Shown in pieces: positions 2,325-35,909 of a stretch of 35,967 nucleotides of DNA; position 1 is the stretch's first letter, and each line of letters opens with the position of its first letter. The stretch is from Bacteroidales bacterium (GTDB lineage: Bacteria > Bacteroidota > Bacteroidia > Bacteroidales > UBA7960). The stretch spans positions 1-35,967 of the forward strand of contig PWJZ01000117.1 of assembly GCA_003559855.1 (NCBI GenBank). Direction: 5' to 3'. Under the pieces are notes generated by a model. It was not told where the DNA came from. It did no database searches and worked only from the letters and a program-made list of their open reading frames with translations. The position numbers and the translations under genes were made by a program.

Positions 2325-3480
2325 TTACTTGCCTTTCCTGTTCCACTGAGATTTCATATAGAATTCATTGTTCCTTGTACAGATTGTTGCTGTCCACTCA
2401 TAGGTTGAGGGCCATTTTTTAAAGACTTTTGCGACCGTATATAAAAACCTTAGAGAAAACTTTGTATGTTTTGGTCTCCAACCCTTTGAAGGTATTATTA
2501 AAACGCTTATTTCATCATTGATTTTTTCAATTATGTAAACTCCTTTTATCTTTCCTGTTGAAGGGTGATATTCGATAGTAAAAACACCGTTAAAAATTGA
2601 ATTATTTTCTATGTCTTCAATATTTGGGAATGCATCATTAAAATGCAGTATCAAAGGATATATGTGATTTTTTCTTTTAATAGATTTAATAAACACTTTA
2701 TCCTCTTTCCATTCTAAACTAATCTGATAATCATCTGAATGAACTATTTCCTGATTTTGTTCTATAGTTATATTTGACATTACCCCTGAAAACTCAGGAT
2801 TAAATGTTGCAATAAGTGGTTTTGTACTATACCTGATAAAAGTCATTTTAGTACGGTCAATAGAAATAGGAAGATTATCAACTCGGTGTTGCCTTCCATC
2901 TATTGACGATTCTACTTCACTATGTCTTCGTCTTACAAAATAAAAATCTTGTAATAAAACCAAAGGCATAGCAGAGGGGTTTTCTATAGCATCACCCATT
3001 GGGGCTAATAATCCAAAAGGTTTACGTTTTTTGGGATGGCTTTCACTAATTCTAAAACTTATCAAACGTCCGTGTAAATCCAAAAACTCATATTGAGCCT
3101 GCACACCGCTTTCGTTAACTAACAAAGAAAAAGGCATCAGGCATCTCTCTTTCGAGCATATTGGCCAGCCCTTTCCCTGCAATATTATATTTTTCGGGAG
3201 AAAGTTTTAACCCCGGCTGATGATAAACATCAACCTTGCCATCCACACGCCATGCAATTACCAGTTGCCCTGATCCATTGATCTGGTCATCAAAAACTTG
3301 AGGCTCGAAGCCAATATAAAGGGAGTCAGGATCATTTTCAATATTAATAAGAAGCAAGCGCTCCATAGGGTCTATATCAATACGAAAGGGGTTTAAGAGT
3401 TTTGTCGTGTTCATTTGCGCATTATTACTTGATAAAAATATTGTACTGAAGATTAATGTGAACAGAATCCTTGCTTTCAT
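2325..3480 (-). pseudogene. Secreted protein of unknown function, frameshifted
   Basis: Two overlapping frames on the minus strand read as one gene. The upstream part (3115-3480) begins with a signal peptide, MKARILFTLIFSTIFLSSNN, and ends a few codons after EREMPDAFF. The downstream part (2325 to about 3130) continues in another frame as LLVNESGVQAQYEFLDLHG with no start or signal of its own. The switch falls in a run of five A on the plus strand (3128-3132). The whole span is 1156 bases, one more than a multiple of three, as a single-base insertion predicts; the repaired protein would be about 384 residues. I do not recognise the family. The C-terminal half is lysine-rich with many beta-type segments and no visible catalytic motif. 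It may be a real mutation or a homopolymer sequencing error. Confidence 0.7.
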
Positions 3481-3517
3481 AAAGAGTGCTTTTGAAATTT
3501 ATGGTTTTTTTAACCTT

Positions 3518-4624
3518 TCAAGACCTTTCTGCAATTTCTTTAACAATAGAATTAAACTTTTCGGGTTCTTCCATAACCGGGCTGTGGGCTGAGCTTTCAA
3601 AGGTGAAAAACTCTTTTTGTGGTGCTTTTAGCTGATGGTAAAAATCCTTGGCTACCGGATATGGAGTTGTGTAATCATGTATTCCATGAAAAATGTAAAC
3701 AGGCACTCTCATGCTGTCAATATCAGTAAACAGGTTGATATTAACCACATCAAGCCAAAGATGTTCCAAAGAGAACATGCTACCATTCATAAAGTTAATC
3801 TTCTCGCTAAATGTATAAATACCCGAATTTAAAACTATCTTTATAATTGGCCACATTCCGGTTATTTCTTTTACTGTACCACCTCCATAACGGTTGACAT
3901 ATACTCTTTCAATCATTAAATAATCTATCCACTCATCAACGCTTGCTTCAGAATCCGGAAAATTCAATTTAGAAAGTTCTCTGATAGTTCTATCATCATT
4001 TCTTTCAAGGGCTTGTTCCATAACCCATTGAAATGAAACCTGTTCGCCTTTGAATTGGTCGCATACCTGGCCGATTCCAAAGAAAGCATGGTAAAGTTCA
4101 GGATATTCGTATGCGGTTAGAATTCCTAATAATGAACCCCACGAATGCCCCATAAGGTGAATTTTTTCCTGTTCAAAACGTTCGGCAAGATATTCGCTTA
4201 GTTCACGTGTATCTGAAATGAATTGCCTCATATTCATACTTTCTACAGGAATATCTTTTGAATATGACTTCCCTGCCCCCCGTTGTTCCCAATATACCAT
4301 TATAAAGTCTTTTTCAATATCAGTATTAAAATGCTTCATAAATGCAGCTTCGGGGCTTCCGGGCCCGCCATGCAAAAATAGCATGACAGGCTTGGAAGTA
4401 TCTTCACCACGAATAATAAGGTGTTGCTCTATTCCGCCGAGTTTTATTTTTTCAATAGCAGATATGCTGCCTTCAATTAATTTCCCGTCAGAATCTTTGA
4501 CAGGTTCAGCTTTTCCGGGACTTTTTATCCATAAAAGAGTGGTTAGTCCAAAAATAATTACTAAGATCCCTCCTAAAATATAGAGGAATACTTTTACTAT
4601 TTTCTTTAATAATTTCTTTTTCAT
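3518..4624 (-). CDS. Membrane-anchored alpha/beta hydrolase, proline iminopeptidase-like
   Basis: A 368-residue protein. Residues about 8-33 form one N-terminal membrane segment, so the catalytic domain probably sits in the periplasm. The fold motifs are clear: HGGPGSPEAAF (oxyanion region typical of prolyl aminopeptidases), YWEQRGAGKS, the nucleophile elbow GHSWGS (Ser161), an acid in FHGIHDYTTP (Asp317) and the histidine in ESSAHSPVMEEP (His347). HGGPG plus WEQRGAGKS suggests the S33/proline iminopeptidase branch, but the substrate cannot be read from sequence. I chose the ATG at 4622-4624 because the membrane segment follows immediately and an AGGAAG lies just upstream; an earlier in-frame ATG at 4651 would add nine residues. 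It is the last of a run of minus-strand genes, after the duplicated membrane protein. Confidence 0.85.
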   Translation of the reverse strand: MKKKLLKKIVKVFLYILGGILVIIFGLTTLLWIKSPGKAEPVKDSDGKLIEGSISAIEKIKLGGIEQHLIIRGEDTSKPVMLFLHGGPGSPEAAFMKHFNTDIEKDFIMVYWEQRGAGKSYSKDIPVESMNMRQFISDTRELSEYLAERFEQEKIHLMGHSWGSLLGILTAYEYPELYHAFFGIGQVCDQFKGEQVSFQWVMEQALERNDDRTIRELSKLNFPDSEASVDEWIDYLMIERVYVNRYGGGTVKEITGMWPIIKIVLNSGIYTFSEKINFMNGSMFSLEHLWLDVVNINLFTDIDSMRVPVYIFHGIHDYTTPYPVAKDFYHQLKAPQKEFFTFESSAHSPVMEEPEKFNSIVKEIAERS

Positions 4625-28565: not shown

Positions 28566-31500
28566 TTATTGCACCATAATTTTTTTAAACTGATAATTTC
28601 CTTTGTATTCAAACTTTAACAAATAAAGACCGGGTGACAATCCGTCAATATTAAATTCTATTTTCTGGAATCCCTGTTCTGTGGTTATCTGCGTTTTAAT
28701 ATTCTGTCTGTGAACATTGACAAGGGATATTTTTACCGGTTCTCCGCTTTCATTAATAAACTCAACATATAGATAATTATAAGCAGGGTTTGGATATGCT
28801 TTCAGCTCAAGCAATTCCGACTCAGTTATGCCGGTACCATCCTTTATCATAACTACCGATACCGTTTTATCTGAATCAACCACTTTTATATCCCCTTCGG
28901 CATCAAAATAATTTTCAGCTTTAACAGTGTAGGTATATTCGCCGGGTTCAACATCTTCAAAAACATAATCACCGGGATCATTTTCAATTACATCCAAAGT
29001 AACAACGGCATCTTCCACAGGATCACCAAATTCATCATCTACGATGAAAATGACAGTAAAGGTGGTTATTTCAAAGTTTGCTATCAGGTTGCGGTCCGAT
29101 TCCGCGGTAAATACATATTCCTTGTCGGTAGCCACTATAATACCTTCTTCCGTCCAATTTACAAAGTGACAACCAGCTTGAGGAATTGCCGTAAGTATGA
29201 CTTCTTCAAAATGTTCATAATCACCGTCACCTTCCACGGTGCCAAGGCCGGCATCATTTGGAACGGCCGTGATCGTATATACATTCACTTCAAAATGAGC
29301 CACAAGGTCACGCTCTTCTTCGGCAATGAAAGTATAGGTTGCACCGGCAGGTTCTCCGCCAACCGTAACAACTTCGCCGTCCTCAGTCCATTCGACGAAA
29401 TGATAACCGGTATCAGGAGTGGCGACAAGGGTTACCTCTTCGCCGTGGGGGTAATCACCACCGCCTTCCACTGTGCCATAGTCAGCATCGTTTGGCTCAG
29501 CAGTAATGGTATAAACGTTAATGTTAAAATGAGCTAGCAGGTCACGGTCTTTTTCGGCAATGAAAGTATAGGTTGCACCGGCAGGCTCGCCCCCGACCAT
29601 AACAACCTCGCCGTCTTCAGTCCATTCGACGAAATGATAACCGGTATCAGGAGTGGCGACAAGAGATACCTCTTCGCCGTGGGGGTAATCACCACCGCCT
29701 TCCACTGTGCCATAATCGGGATTATCGGGGATGGCAGTGATCGTATATACATTCAAGTCAAAATGAGCTATAAGGTCACGATCTTCTTCGGCAATGAAAG
29801 TATAGGTTGCACCGGCAGGCTCGCCCCCGACCATAACAACCTCGCCGTCTTCAGTCCATTCAACGAAATGATAACCGGTATTTGGAGTGGCGACAAGGGT
29901 TACTTCATCGCCGTGGGGGTAATCACCACCGCCTTCCACTGTGCCATAATCGGGATTATCGGGGATGGCATTGATCGTATAGACATTCACGTCAAAATGA
30001 GCTACAAGGTTACGGTCTTCTTCGGCAATGAAAGTATAGGTTGCACCGGCAGGCTCGCCCCCGACCATAACAACCTCACCGTCTTCTGTCCATTCAATAA
30101 AATAATGACCGGTGTTTGGGATGGCAACAAGGGTTACCTCTTCGCCGTGATAATAATTACCGGCACCTTCCACTATACCATAATCAGGATTATTGGGTAT
30201 CGCATATATTGTATATACATCCATTTCACCAAGAATGCCAAATGGAGAATTCATTATCACCGTAGAGCTTTCATTTTCCGTAACTACTGTAAGTTTAAGG
30301 TAGCAGCTTTGCGATTCGTGATCAGGTATTGTCCACTGGTATCTGCCATTGTTGGGCAAGTTGTCGGCTACAAGCGACCAAGGTCCTTCCGGTCCGCTCT
30401 CCGAAAACTCAATTTTCACATGAGAGGGAATATTGCCGGGCACAGCGGAAGCCCAATGTATGAAACGTACCGAACCCGAATAAAAATTCTCGTAATTTTT
30501 AGGATAAAGGTTCTTGATCCACAACTCTTCGGGTTCAGTATCTTCGGCAAACACATAAAGCTCGTTCTGTCGTTCCCACCAGGGAGATCCTTCGTAAGAA
30601 AGGAGCACTATGTCACCGCGGCCATTCTGATTAAGATCGCCACCTGCTCTGAAAGCATTGGCATAACCCGGCGTATCATCAGTTTGGAAAGTTGCATCGG
30701 GTGTCCAGTTTCCATGACCGTCTCCCAACCAAAGCTGTACAGTTCCATAGCCAAAAGCTATCAGATCAGTATAACCGTTGGCATTCATATCATACAGTTG
30801 AGTTAGCTCAAATGAGCCGGTTGCAGGCAGGTTTCCTGAATAGCATACCCATGTATTGCTAACTTTATCAAACTCATATACTTCCACACCACCATCCGTA
30901 TTAACGAAAGCCATCCCATAGCTGCCATCATTATTAATGTCGCCCACAGATATTCCATATCTGGGAGTATAATACCCATAATAAGGCAATCCGTCATCGT
31001 TATTTTCGAAATTTCCCATTCCATCACCAAAATAAGCAGTTCCCAAAGCATGACCTGCAATAAAGTCGAGAAATCCGTTATTGTTCAGATCAGCAAACTG
31101 TATCAACATGTCTGAATTATTTCCCAGCAAACCGAAGCTGTTTTCCCAGGTACCATCGCTCTGGTTCAGATAAACATGAAAACCGTCACAGCAACCGAAT
31201 GCATTGCTCACGATATCCAGAAACCCGTTATTGTTAAGATCGCCAAGATCAGTGCCAAACATGCCCCATTCCTGACCGCTGGTAGCCAAACCCTCATCCC
31301 AGGGTGTCCAGTTCATACCAGTTCCATCGCCAAGGGCTGCCTCAATGTATTGATCTCCAAACCCTGTGCTTGAATAGGGATGATGCATTCCGTAAGCAAC
31401 ATCCTTTAATCCGTCATTATTAACATCTCCTACAGCAATGCCGCCATAACCGAAGCTCCCTTCCATGTGCAGGCTGAAATTGCCTTCTCCGTCATTGAAC

Positions 31501-31757
31501 CATACCATTATACCATGCTGGTCGGTGTTGACCCATGGAGATCCATGATCGCCAATCGACAAGATATCCACATGACCGTTGTCATTGATATCGACCATGG
31601 CAAAATCAGTCCGCCCACCCTCAAAGATTGGCTCATGAAGACCACTGGTCAGCCTGGTATATGACAAAGCGGATCTGACAGTATCCTGTGCTTCTAAAAC
31701 CAGGCCGGCAGCCATTGAAAGCAGGAAAAAAAAGAAATAAGTTTTTGTATGTTTCAT
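28566..31757 (-). CDS. T9SS-exported FG-GAP and InlB-like repeat protein
   Basis: A 1063-residue extracellular protein: signal peptide (1-23); a propeller-type region (about 45-410) with at least seven FG-GAP/VCBS calcium-binding motifs such as DINDNGHVDILSIG, DVNNDGLKDVAYG and DLNNNGFLDIVSN; an Ig-like domain (about 415-510, VRFIHWASAVPGNIPSHVKI); five InlB B-like repeats (513-897), four of exactly 78 residues and nearly identical; a carboxypeptidase-regulatory-like domain (about 900-975, GEYTYTVKAENYFDAEG); and a T9SS type A sorting domain (about 985-1063) from LKAYPNPAYNYLYVEF to LSPGLYLLKFEY. No enzyme domain is seen. A surface adhesin or binding role is inference. Its neighbours give no functional link. 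Confidence 0.88.
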   Translation of the reverse strand: MKHTKTYFFFFLLSMAAGLVLEAQDTVRSALSYTRLTSGLHEPIFEGGRTDFAMVDINDNGHVDILSIGDHGSPWVNTDQHGIMVWFNDGEGNFSLHMEGSFGYGGIAVGDVNNDGLKDVAYGMHHPYSSTGFGDQYIEAALGDGTGMNWTPWDEGLATSGQEWGMFGTDLGDLNNNGFLDIVSNAFGCCDGFHVYLNQSDGTWENSFGLLGNNSDMLIQFADLNNNGFLDFIAGHALGTAYFGDGMGNFENNDDGLPYYGYYTPRYGISVGDINNDGSYGMAFVNTDGGVEVYEFDKVSNTWVCYSGNLPATGSFELTQLYDMNANGYTDLIAFGYGTVQLWLGDGHGNWTPDATFQTDDTPGYANAFRAGGDLNQNGRGDIVLLSYEGSPWWERQNELYVFAEDTEPEELWIKNLYPKNYENFYSGSVRFIHWASAVPGNIPSHVKIEFSESGPEGPWSLVADNLPNNGRYQWTIPDHESQSCYLKLTVVTENESSTVIMNSPFGILGEMDVYTIYAIPNNPDYGIVEGAGNYYHGEEVTLVAIPNTGHYFIEWTEDGEVVMVGGEPAGATYTFIAEEDRNLVAHFDVNVYTINAIPDNPDYGTVEGGGDYPHGDEVTLVATPNTGYHFVEWTEDGEVVMVGGEPAGATYTFIAEEDRDLIAHFDLNVYTITAIPDNPDYGTVEGGGDYPHGEEVSLVATPDTGYHFVEWTEDGEVVMVGGEPAGATYTFIAEKDRDLLAHFNINVYTITAEPNDADYGTVEGGGDYPHGEEVTLVATPDTGYHFVEWTEDGEVVTVGGEPAGATYTFIAEEERDLVAHFEVNVYTITAVPNDAGLGTVEGDGDYEHFEEVILTAIPQAGCHFVNWTEEGIIVATDKEYVFTAESDRNLIANFEITTFTVIFIVDDEFGDPVEDAVVTLDVIENDPGDYVFEDVEPGEYTYTVKAENYFDAEGDIKVVDSDKTVSVVMIKDGTGITESELLELKAYPNPAYNYLYVEFINESGEPVKISLVNVHRQNIKTQITTEQGFQKIEFNIDGLSPGLYLLKFEYKGNYQFKKIMVQ
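29067..30221 (-). repeat. Near-identical 234-bp coding tandem repeats
   Basis: Four units of exactly 234 bases (29286-29519, 29520-29753, 29754-29987, 29988-30221) and one diverged unit of 219 bases (29067-29285). Neighbouring units agree at most positions, including third codon positions, which points to recent duplication or gene conversion. The two end units are the most diverged. Confidence 0.92.
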
Positions 31758-33367: not shown

Positions 33368-34855
33368 ATGGATGAAGGAATAGCTATTCAGATAGACCCT
33401 ACACCGGGAACAATCATTTCTTTTATAGCTTATCTAGTAATAATTATTGCGATTGGTGTATTATCCTCCCGTTTTTCATCCAAAGGTATTACCCATTATT
33501 TTATAGGCGGGCGGCAGATGAACCGTTTGGTAGTGGCTATGTCGTCGGTAGTATCGGCCCGCAGTGCCTGGCTGCTGTTGGGTTTCACAGGCATGTCATA
33601 TACTATGGGCATGTCGGCTATATGGGCTGCCGTGGGCTATATCTTTGTCGAATTCCTGCTTTTCTTTTATTATGCAGGCAGGATAAGAAGGTTTACAGAG
33701 AAGTTTGACTGTATTACGCTACCCGACTTTTACACTGCACGTTTTCAGGATAAAAAGGGCCACTTAAGGGTAATTATTGTTTTTATCATAGCATTGTTTA
33801 TGATAGCTTATGTTTCTGCACAACTTGTAGCCGGCTCAAAAGCATTCTCGGCATGTTATAATATTACTGAAACCTCATCACTTCTTTTAACCGCGGCAGT
33901 AGTACTTATCTATGTGATACTGGGCGGATTTTTGGCGGTCAGTCTTATAGATACCATACAGGCGTTTGTGATCATGGCAGCACTTATCATTGTTCCGGTA
34001 GTTGGTATCATTGATATCGGCGGCTTCAGTCAGTTTATAAGCCATTTAATGGAATTTGAGACGGGTGAATTCATAAATCCTATGGCATTAAGTATAGGTG
34101 CTATGATTGGATTTATCGGCATTGGGCTGGGCCCGCCCGGGAATCCTCATGTCATTTCAAGATACATGTCGATAAAGAACCCGCGGGCTTTTAAGTCGGT
34201 TGCCTTAATGGGTACATTGGCAAACATAATAATGGCAGGTGGTGCTTTGTTTGTAGGATTGGTCGGCAGGCTTTACTATCCGGAATTGATAATGCTTCCC
34301 GGCGAAGACTCTGAAAACCTTTACCCTATGCTGGCATGGGAACACCTCACCCCTATTCTCTTCGGATTGGTCATAGCTTCTATATTTGCTGCGATAGTAT
34401 CTACGGCTGATTCCCAGTTGCTGGTGGGAGCATCTGCCGTGGTACGAGATGTTTACGAAAAAATGATAATGAAGGGCAAGGAAGTATCTCAATCAAAACT
34501 TGTATTTATGAGCCGTACAGTTGTCTTTTTACTTGTGGTGCTAGCGATAATAATGGGATGGCTTGCAGGCGAACTTGTATTCTGGCTGGTGTTATTTGCA
34601 TGGGCAGGCCTGGGAGCATCATTCGGTCCTACAACCATCCTTGCACTCTATTGGAAACGAACAACGCATGCAGGAGTAATTGCAGGAATTATCACAGGGG
34701 CGGTTACGGTAATAATATGGAATCTGTTTCTCAGTGATCTGATATATGAGCTGGTACCTGCATTCGCATTGTCATTTCTGGTAACTATAATTGTAAGCCT
34801 TCGTACATCACCGCCTGATAAAAGAGATGAAATGTTTAATGCAATGGAGAAATAG
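33368..34855 (+). CDS. Sodium:solute symporter (SSS family, PutP-like)
   Basis: A 495-residue inner-membrane transporter with about 13 helices of the LeuT-type SSS family, which imports small organic solutes with sodium. Length and layout are close to the proline carrier PutP. The conserved SSS region YFIGGRQMNRLVVAMS follows the first helix, and VSTADSQLLVGASAVVRDVY holds Ser345 and Thr346, which match sodium-binding Ser340/Thr341 of E. coli PutP. However, the position of the important PutP Asp55 (motif SDMSGW) is Ala here (SARSAW), so the solute may not be proline and coupling may differ. Immediately after the stop codon come short tandem repeats and a terminator. Confidence 0.88.
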   Translation: MDEGIAIQIDPTPGTIISFIAYLVIIIAIGVLSSRFSSKGITHYFIGGRQMNRLVVAMSSVVSARSAWLLLGFTGMSYTMGMSAIWAAVGYIFVEFLLFFYYAGRIRRFTEKFDCITLPDFYTARFQDKKGHLRVIIVFIIALFMIAYVSAQLVAGSKAFSACYNITETSSLLLTAAVVLIYVILGGFLAVSLIDTIQAFVIMAALIIVPVVGIIDIGGFSQFISHLMEFETGEFINPMALSIGAMIGFIGIGLGPPGNPHVISRYMSIKNPRAFKSVALMGTLANIIMAGGALFVGLVGRLYYPELIMLPGEDSENLYPMLAWEHLTPILFGLVIASIFAAIVSTADSQLLVGASAVVRDVYEKMIMKGKEVSQSKLVFMSRTVVFLLVVLAIIMGWLAGELVFWLVLFAWAGLGASFGPTTILALYWKRTTHAGVIAGIITGAVTVIIWNLFLSDLIYELVPAFALSFLVTIIVSLRTSPPDKRDEMFNAMEK

Positions 34856-34890
34856 CAAAGGTTATCTTTTAGACAGCTTCCGGTTTCTCC

Positions 34891-34935
34891 GGTATAAACC
34901 CTTAGGGTATAAACCCTTCCGGTATAGATCCTTAG
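34891..34935 (+). repeat. Three 15-bp tandem repeats after the symporter gene
   Basis: Units starting at 34891, 34906 and 34921, consensus GGTATAAACCCTTAG, each with one to three changes. CCCTTAGGG in the array is itself nearly palindromic and can pair with the terminator stem that follows. Confidence 0.75.
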
Positions 34936-34961
34936 GGTTTCCAAAAACCCTAAGGGTTTTT
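34930..34961 (+). terminator. Intrinsic terminator of the symporter gene
   Basis: Stem CCTTAGGGTTT (34930-34940) with AAACCCTAAGG (34945-34955), a four-base loop, and a short T-run. It lies 74 bases after the symporter stop codon. Confidence 0.75.
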
Positions 34962-35016
34962 AGTAAAAAATTGCCAGCTTCCGTTTTTTACTTTTTGCAA
35001 CGTTTACAATAAGTCT

Positions 35017-35171
35017 ACGAGATTTCTCCCTCTGCTATCGCTCCGGCCGAAATGACATAAGTGCTTGATAATAAAGGGGATGAGAGGAGAGGGCGGCTTC
35101 GCCGTCCTCTCCTCTCATCCCTCCCGATCACCAACGGCGGGGTCATTTCGACCGGCAGGGAGAAATCTCGT
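35017..35171. repeat. 155-bp palindromic MITE/REP-like element
   Basis: Nested inverted repeats around one centre. The outer arms ACGAGATTTCTCCCT (35017-35031) and its exact complement (35157-35171) match over 15 bases. Inside, CGAAATGAC (35048-35056) pairs with GTCATTTCG (35142-35150), and CCGG with CCGG beside them. The core is a 21-bp stem (35077-35097 with 35101-35121, one G-T pair) with a three-base TTC loop. It has no coding potential of its own. It resembles non-autonomous palindromic repeats scattered between genes in Bacteroidota. There is no second copy in this window. Confidence 0.75.
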
Positions 35172-35291
35172 GATGGAACAGGTGAAGGCTTTAAACGCTC
35201 CTGTTGAAAACCAGGACATATGCTATTTCCACTATCACCTCGCAGAGGCGAAATAACGGTAGAATATATGACCATCCATAGATACCAATCC

Positions 35292-35329
35292 GTCCCGATC
35301 TTTGCACCATATGGCACAAAGATCGGGAC
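35292..35329. repeat. Second perfect inverted repeat near the FMN reductase stop
   Basis: GTCCCGATCTTTG (35292-35304) with CAAAGATCGGGAC (35317-35329): 13 bp, no mismatch. The 12-base loop contains the palindrome CCATATGG. It ends one base before the reductase stop codon. Without a T-run on either side it is not a standard terminator; it may be a repeat element or a transcript-end structure. Confidence 0.65.
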
Positions 35330-35330
35330 T

Positions 35331-35909
35331 TTAAAACGGCACCCCTTTCTCCCGTTGATTCTTCAAAGCTTCAACATACCATACAAATTCATCCAGAAAC
35401 CTTGCTGTTGATTTTTCTACAATGCTATTCTTTGGAGTCAAATCATCATTGAATAATTCACCTATAGTTATAAAAGGTAGCATTGATGATATCGATGGCA
35501 TTCCCAATTCACCAAGGATCGCCCGCAGATGCACGGCTGCTCTGACACCTCCGAAAATACCTGCCGAATAACAAGCAATTGCGGAAGGCTTGAATAAATA
35601 TTCACTTTGAAAATGATCCAAAATATTTTTAAGTGCCGGCGGAATGCTATGATTATATTCGCCTGATACGATCAAAAAACCGTCGGTTTGATTAAAAATA
35701 GTTGCAAGTTGCTCCATTTGAGCAGGCGCTTCTCCCTTGTCATATTCCTTGTACATCTTGTCGAGAAATGGTAAACTATATTCCAAAGGATCAATAAGAT
35801 AAGTCTTAACTCCTCTTTCCTTAACCTTCTTTTCAAGATATTTGGCCGCCAGAATTCCCTGACGCCCAGTACGCACAGAACCGTAAATAATGCTTATTGT
35901 ATGTTTCAT
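35331..35909 (-). CDS. NADPH-dependent FMN reductase (flavodoxin-like)
   Basis: A 192-residue flavoprotein of the NADPH-dependent FMN reductase family (PF03358 type), which reduces free FMN, quinones or azo compounds with NAD(P)H. Motifs: the FMN phosphate loop YGSVRTGRQG near the N-terminus; LEYSLPFLDKMY; and the family signature SGEYNHSIPPALKNILDHF (about 82-100), followed by CYSAGIFGGVRAAVHLR, which contacts the flavin. Length is normal. There is no signal peptide, so it is cytoplasmic. The substrate is unclear. Its start is 58 bases from the window edge, and its stop lies beside the inverted repeat at 35292-35329. Confidence 0.9.
   Translation of the reverse strand: MKHTISIIYGSVRTGRQGILAAKYLEKKVKERGVKTYLIDPLEYSLPFLDKMYKEYDKGEAPAQMEQLATIFNQTDGFLIVSGEYNHSIPPALKNILDHFQSEYLFKPSAIACYSAGIFGGVRAAVHLRAILGELGMPSISSMLPFITIGELFNDDLTPKNSIVEKSTARFLDEFVWYVEALKNQREKGVPF

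Follow-up and report, generated by a model that had tools for sequence, protein, structure and literature searches.

The CGTC superfamily of REPs is characterized by a CGTC, TGTC or CCTC tag, a stem of 8-9 bp that starts from AT, a loop of 4-5 nt and an unpaired tail that is mostly CCA. In the consulted parts of the 2013 survey of these repeats, no dedicated transposase was known for them, and the repeats were not adjacent to transposase genes (PMC3733652). The IS4Sa subgroup of insertion sequences is described, in the sections of its source that we drew on, by ends of the form CA......T, direct repeats of 8-10 bp and lengths of 1150-1750 bp (PMC2266710). Here, we compare with these systems a nested palindromic element found in the window, i.e. 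in the whole 35,967-nt stretch of Bacteroidales DNA that was analyzed. The element is probably a decayed member of a family of Bacteroidales MITEs of ~200 bp, for which an IS4-family DDE transposase would act as the mobilizer in trans.

Three inverted repeats share a single centre at positions 35017-35171, as read from the sequence, and the nested concentric palindromes claimed in the initial annotation were confirmed as 15-bp outer arms, 9-bp inner arms and a core stem. The left outer arm, ACGAGATTTCTCCCT (35017-35031, forward strand), is a perfect inverted match to the right outer arm, AGGGAGAAATCTCGT (35157-35171). The inner pair consists of CGAAATGAC at 35048-35056 and GTCATTTCG at 35142-35150. 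The core hairpin occupies 35076-35122; its stem is formed by 35076-35097 and 35101-35122 around the loop TTC (35098-35100), and its 5' strand is rich in purines. This stem had been described as 21 bp long. It is indeed long, but our count is 22 pairs, made up of 20 Watson-Crick and 2 G-T. Gaps of 19 nt separate the core from the inner arms on the left (35057-35075) and on the right (35123-35141), the corresponding distances from stem to tag in 74 related elements being 19.4 ± 3.3 and 19.1 ± 3.5 nt. Alignment to relatives delimited two CGTC-like palindromic arms. The left one (35017-35056) carries on the reverse strand the tag TGTC followed by ATTTCGG..., and the right one, GTCATTTCGACCGGCAGGGAGAAATCTCGT (35142-35171), lies on the forward strand and carries the tag GGTC. 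Within the right arm, ATTTCGACC and GGGAGAAAT form 7 of 9 pairs with the loop GGCA; the interior of the left arm is longer. Outside the right arm, the segment ..GATGGAACAG.. (35172-35188, forward strand) resembles by eye the right ends of copies in a sister genome (..GATATAGAACAGACAATC), and no IS4-type end was recognizable in this segment of the window copy.

The element is flanked by two convergent genes, one for a sodium:solute symporter (33368-34855, forward strand) and one for an NADPH-dependent FMN reductase (35331-35909, reverse strand). A separate, near-perfect hairpin, CCCGATCTTTG..CAAAGATCGGG, is located at 35293-35328 just past the stop codon of the FMN reductase gene. On the other side, 3' of the symporter gene, a repeated CCCTTAGGG / AACCCTAAGGGTTTTT stretch (34895-34962) is terminator-like by eye, and the consensus scan listed no terminator there. 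Further away, positions 28566-31757 of the reverse strand encode a predicted protein of 1063 amino acids in which a repeat of the type NPDYGTVEGGGDYPHGEEVTLVATPNTGYHFVEWTEDGEVV recurs about five times in tandem.

The copy search that had been suggested at the outset bore out that the element is a non-coding repeat and is dispersed: further copies were found in the window's own genome (G000) and in a sister genome of the same genus (G001). A search of G000 with the element gave partial matches on other contigs. A loosened pattern for the dimer of arms found five places in this genome, on contigs C7, C20 (the window copy), C36, C48 and C101, and a further copy with diverged arms was found on C97. 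On C120, a pair of arms is split by a RAYT-like module. Two copies in G001 were 75% and 77% identical to the window element over nearly its full length, and a third was 71% identical over part of it. Two G001 copies (L045 and L047, on contigs C92 and C75) have in common an additional palindromic insert within the left arm, from which it seems that a derived subfamily was copied. When named genomes were searched with the right-arm pattern, 8 stretches in three MAGs matched; the right-arm sequence was also present in a MAG labelled Nitrospiraceae (OTbin.67; L131 and L135), which points to mis-binning or transfer. The search for plasmid relatives of the window element gave no match.

Sites that lack the element were also found in relatives, as the initial annotation had proposed to look for, although the orthologous sites are too diverged for the junction to be placed base by base. 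One G001 insertion (L044) has no counterpart in G000, G002 and G003, whose orthologous intergenic regions are free of the element. The element is likewise absent from the window locus in G002, which was read from two contigs overlapping end to end. A pirin gene (L137, 3-1019) that is absent at this place from the window genome lies there between the same symporter and FMN reductase genes; therefore, the comparison does not provide a clean empty site. The site of another G001 copy, on contig C5 (L043), was dropped as a candidate empty site because its left flank was present in G002 and G003 with the right flank not adjoining.

The distribution of the architecture was determined with a pattern of two inward-facing tags 72-102 nt apart. 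This dimer was present in 45 of 393 sampled Bacteroidales genomes, belonging to 36 of 207 genera, and the reversed control pattern had no match in the same 393 genomes. The pattern does not include the core, and the matches in G098 and G109 and part of those in G134 and G317 have no long core. A phylum-wide sample of 395 genomes yielded seven matches, namely the window's own genome and six genomes outside Bacteroidales, of which only G632 and G733 show a core hairpin by eye in the printed part. The nested dimer looks like a largely Bacteroidales feature. These counts refer to sampled genomes, and copies from one genome cannot be treated as independent. Most loci were retrieved via the dimer pattern, among the matches listed, so that orientation counts are biased and were not used. 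No description of the nested element was found in the open-access literature searched.

The core was characterized in a series of 90 distinct dimers from the fetched loci, dimers containing N (e.g. L154) being skipped. Of these, 83 had a gap of 72-102 nt and were kept. A core stem with a score of at least 12 was present in 74 of the 83, compared with 1 of 249 shuffled sequences, and nine dimers had no such stem. In the 74 dimers, from which the geometry was derived, the core loop measured 3 nt in 49 cases and the 5' core strand was more than half purine in every case. The inner core pairs comprised 1226 Watson-Crick pairs, 10 G-U, 13 A-C and 17 others. The letters themselves vary between and within genomes. 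When cores of the same genome were compared pair by pair (2035 comparisons, which are not independent), 1188 pairs were the same, 769 had changed on both sides from one Watson-Crick pair to another and 78 had one partner unpaired. The paired fraction of the core was 0.975, as opposed to a mean arm-to-arm similarity of 0.47 and a gap identity of 0.36.

It was considered whether the element is a structured RNA or a transcription attenuator between convergent genes, a function for which its very stable fold speaks. The 181-nt region of the window folds at -98.5 kcal/mol, whereas shuffled sequences reach -57.3 ± 4.6 kcal/mol (z -8.98), and none of 200 shuffles was as stable. The position of the window copy between convergent genes agrees with such a function, as does the finding that no ORF encloses any of the 58 relatives placed, as judged with a crude ORF caller and with element-overlapping ORFs of less than 450 nt set aside. 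The purine-rich 5' strand, which holds on both strands, likewise counts in its favour. G-U pairs are not commoner than A-C pairs (10 versus 13), so the pairing is not as expected if an RNA needed it; arms and gaps are less well matched than the core. Gene context was near background: 13 relatives lie between convergent, 36 between tandem and 9 between divergent genes, versus 9, 41 and 15 for other gaps at the same loci. This count placed 58 of 74 relatives, 16 having short flanks, and a bias to convergent genes was set aside as weak only. Among the relatives, 5 of 148 strands show a T tract following the core, and no terminator-like site was found in 34800-35400. A Rho-independent terminator was rejected for lack of a T tract after the stem and of any site in that scan. 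Rfam gave no match at the gathering score; its 35 sub-threshold matches are generic hairpins. An RNA or attenuator function is, on balance, improbable.

The core would be a structure-only module, in which letters change and both strands of the stem change together. Template switching during replication, in which one arm serves as the template for its partner, is an established process and has been argued for RNA genes in the consulted portion of its source (PMC8794818). From the pattern of changes, the simplest account would be that such switching acts on the DNA itself, rewriting one core arm from its partner and in this way maintaining the core. The core series, in which the strands of a hairpin change together without a build-up of G-U, bears on the question of whether palindromes can be maintained by DNA-level template switching.

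Lining up the copies of one genome revealed a further inverted repeat outside the arms. Its ends have the IS4-type consensus CATTASTGTCCGGTTAAA, a form also written CATTASTGTCCGG. Ends were evaluated on the 138 flanks of 69 elements, each flank being 130-140 bases long or more. The word TGTCCGR occurred on 22 of 138 flanks and the reversed word on 1 of 138. With a cut-off of 13 matches out of 18, the end consensus, which was derived from some of the same copies, was present on 26 of 138 flanks compared with 2 of 138 shuffled ones. IS4-like terminal inverted repeats are carried by a minority of the family.

Directly outside these ends, direct repeats of 9 bp were detected. Nine elements could be scored, having both ends at 13/18 or better and readable 9-mers; six of them matched in at least 7 of 9 bases, as against 3 of 72 cross pairs. 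The individual values were 8, 9, 8, 9, 3, 3, 7, 3 and 8 of 9, and their total was equalled in 23 of 100000 permutations. The remaining three elements had no matching 9-mer in register, and L207 matches only when shifted by one base. Two elements stood outside the scored set, L182 because one 9-mer is cut off and L220 because its ends score 17 and 11; the duplications of both match in 9 of 9 bases. The end-bearing copies accordingly show a target duplication in the range of 8-10 bp. The position of the ends is also regular, 16 of 18 ends of the nine elements lying 37-60 nt outside the tags and the others at 61 and 71 nt. L182 is unusual in that its ends and tags are as much as 72 and 106 nt apart. 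With L182 counted, elements with both ends come from six genera. A free scan for any end combined with a duplication reached a score of at least 19 in 7 of 75 elements, five of them with an IS4-type end, compared with 0 of 294 mismatched pairs. The scan gave neither an end nor a duplication for the window copy, and within the window genus only G1C207 hints at ends and a duplication, with a score inside the control range. The proposal that the 15-bp arms are themselves the ends of the mobile unit found no support; in the end-bearing relatives, as distinct from the window copy, the ends lie further out, are IS4-like and are bordered by 9-bp duplications. It is on architecture and homology shared with the family, and not on ends of its own, that the window copy is classed as a putative decayed relative; it may once have borne such ends.

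The same type of end was found on complete insertion sequences. L509, a 1317-bp insertion sequence in a viral contig, is bordered by the perfect 9-bp duplication AATTGAAGA, and its ends match the consensus in 15 and 17 of 18 positions. Its protein was identified as an IS4-family transposase by Pfam (DDE_Tnp_1, 1.1e-28; DUF4372, 2.4e-28) and NCBIfam (IS4, 255 bits), the Pfam check covering L509 alone among these insertion sequences. Sixteen insertion-sequence loci represent 13 distinct places, as L515 repeats L509, and L521 and L523 repeat L520. Such ends together with a 9-bp duplication were present at nine of the 13 places. The duplication is perfect in eight (L509, L516, L517, L518, L520, L522, L524 and L525) and matches in 8 of 9 bases in L526; L519, L527, L528 and L030 have no such ends. 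These related insertion sequences come from viral contigs and from plasmids of Bacteroidota and Sinorhizobium, and some of their ends are less alike in the GG part. In a side-by-side tally of 20 MITE ends and 14 ends from seven insertion sequences, 18 of the 20 MITE ends begin with CA and have T at position 9. Insertion sequences of the L509 type fit the IS4Sa subgroup. With ends and 9-bp duplications like those of IS4 insertion sequences, nested elements of the end-bearing kind have the appearance of IS4-type MITEs. The fetched genome loci yielded no case of an IS4 transposase with such ends sharing a genome with the nested element; the one match, L030, has 31% identity and different ends. 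Among the 25 candidate end pairs listed, only L509 encodes a transposase by eye; the remaining end-word stretches of viral contigs are likely due to chance.

The strongest rival to the IS4-type MITE is that arm, core and arm form an independent REP- or REPIN-like element with a mobilizer of its own, which is only sometimes found inside IS4-type MITEs. The TGTCCGR word was absent within 120 nt on either side in 52 of the 69 elements with readable flanks, and flanks vary from genome to genome in eight lined-up groups, both as expected for such a unit. The CGTC tag was near the end word in none of 199 viral-contig stretches carrying that word. The arms, moreover, resemble the CGTC-tagged REPs, for which the portion of the 2013 survey consulted knew no transposase (PMC3733652). 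What argues against an independent unit is the regular spacing of ends and tags across six genera (L182 included), because 16 of 18 ends would not come to lie at 37-60 nt if the unit had repeatedly and independently inserted at the centre. We regard the independent unit as unlikely.

In the initial annotation, mobilization by a REP-type transposase had been proposed together with a search for TnpA-REP; on this reading, the element would be a REPIN-like doublet with a RAYT (Y1 HUH) transposase as its mobilizer. The anatomy is REPIN-like, and the spacers of REPINs, too, keep their length and pairing with compensatory changes, as stated in the part of that study consulted (PMC3116915). Y1_Tnp matches were present in 40 of 59 relatives, and one RAYT-like gene of the window's own genome is located between two arms. 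The search covered 74 Y1/RAYT loci (210 kb), which are part of all matches and stem mainly from arm-bearing genomes, with at most ~1.5 kb on each side and many ending at contig ends. In this set, the exact tag word GTCATTYCGA occurred at a single locus. With one mismatch allowed, the word was found at 9 of 30 loci (at two places in L099), which was judged to be near chance, the expectation being estimated. At the one tag-bearing locus and in its relatives L126, L099 and L100, the RAYT is accompanied by GTAG-type palindromes of its own with a different sequence. No PF01797 match was obtained in six arm-bearing genomes (G019, G021, G022, G030, G031 and G049), of which G031 has RAYT-like matches and all of which are to be read as incomplete MAGs. 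A cognate RAYT flanked by the same repeat was not found at the loci searched. The rarity of the tag at Y1/RAYT loci agrees with the published finding on the CGTC repeats (PMC3733652).

The RAYT-like gene between two arms had looked promising for RAYT mobilization, which was dropped because this was a single case in 74 loci and because of the GTAG-type palindromes. To our knowledge, 9-bp duplications are not expected of the Y1/RAYT enzyme class. Mobilization by a RAYT is highly improbable. In the single case itself (L042, G000:C120, 2929-4129), a frameshifted RAYT-like gene (~3042-3781, reverse strand) with GTAG-type palindromes is enclosed by a pair of CGTC-like arms that face inward, as though a nested element had been the target of an inserting RAYT module. 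A second RAYT-like gene of the same genome (398-808, reverse strand; L126, G000:C5, 296-1111) has the GTAG-type palindromes GTAGAGACGTGCC / GTACAGACGCGCC on both sides.

The nested architecture, its distribution and the concerted changes in the core were observed directly, as were the IS4-like ends and 9-bp duplications in a subset of the relatives. For the preferred reading as an IS4-type MITE, a well-kept member of the family would be built, from the outside in, of IS4-type terminal inverted repeats, two inverted CGTC-like arms (GTCATTYCGA...GAGRRATC) at a short distance inside them, and a core hairpin, ~20 bp long and set off by gaps of ~19 nt, whose loop is usually of 3 nt. An IS4-family DDE transposase would act in trans on the outer repeats, leaving the 9-bp target duplications, and such an enzyme would move the family as a whole. 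More tentatively, the core may be a sequence-free structural module of a family spanning many genera, in which only the geometry would be fixed: a tag, a spacing of ~19 nt, a stem of 20 bp that is nearly perfect and purine-rich on its 5' strand, a short loop and the mirror image. Its pairing would then be restored as DNA and not selected as RNA, the hairpin could serve as a single-strand or cruciform signal for its own copying, and the CGTC-type REPs of the order might be parts of IS4 MITEs, which would supply their missing transposase.

Described systems share single traits with the nested element. The MITEs of Porphyromonas gingivalis are Bacteroidales MITEs with IS-like ends as well; theirs, however, are IS5-family ends with internal tandem repeats, and words beginning with palindrom- and the word hairpin are absent from the main text of that report (PMC4596501). 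REPINs, as presented in the consulted part of their description, likewise have a pair of inverted palindromes around a variable spacer, the length and pairing of which are preserved via compensatory change, whereas the nested element has a separate core stem, 9-bp duplications in the end-bearing copies and no RAYT linkage in the loci searched (PMC3116915). Relative to what the consulted text of the 2013 survey reports on CGTC-tagged REPs, the nested element resembles them in the (T/G)GTC tag in front of a stem starting with AT, the 4-nt loop of the right arm, the arrangement as dimers, the intergenic location and the occurrence of the class in Bacteroidetes (PMC3733652). It differs from them in its inward-facing tags (the TT arrangement, rare there), the long core hairpin between the tags, the tail, which in the window copy is CTC and not CCA, and the IS4-type ends of some copies. 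These ends and the 9-bp duplications provide a concrete, testable transposase candidate for at least some CGTC repeats of Bacteroidales. Compared with the IS4Sa MITEs, the nested element stands apart by its length of ~200 bp, its three nested palindromes and the absence of a transposase gene, and the window copy by having no recognizable ends; as far as the consulted sections of the IS4Sa source describe these MITEs, the end-bearing relatives have in common with them the CA ends with T at position 9, the 9-bp direct repeats and a close end consensus (PMC2266710).
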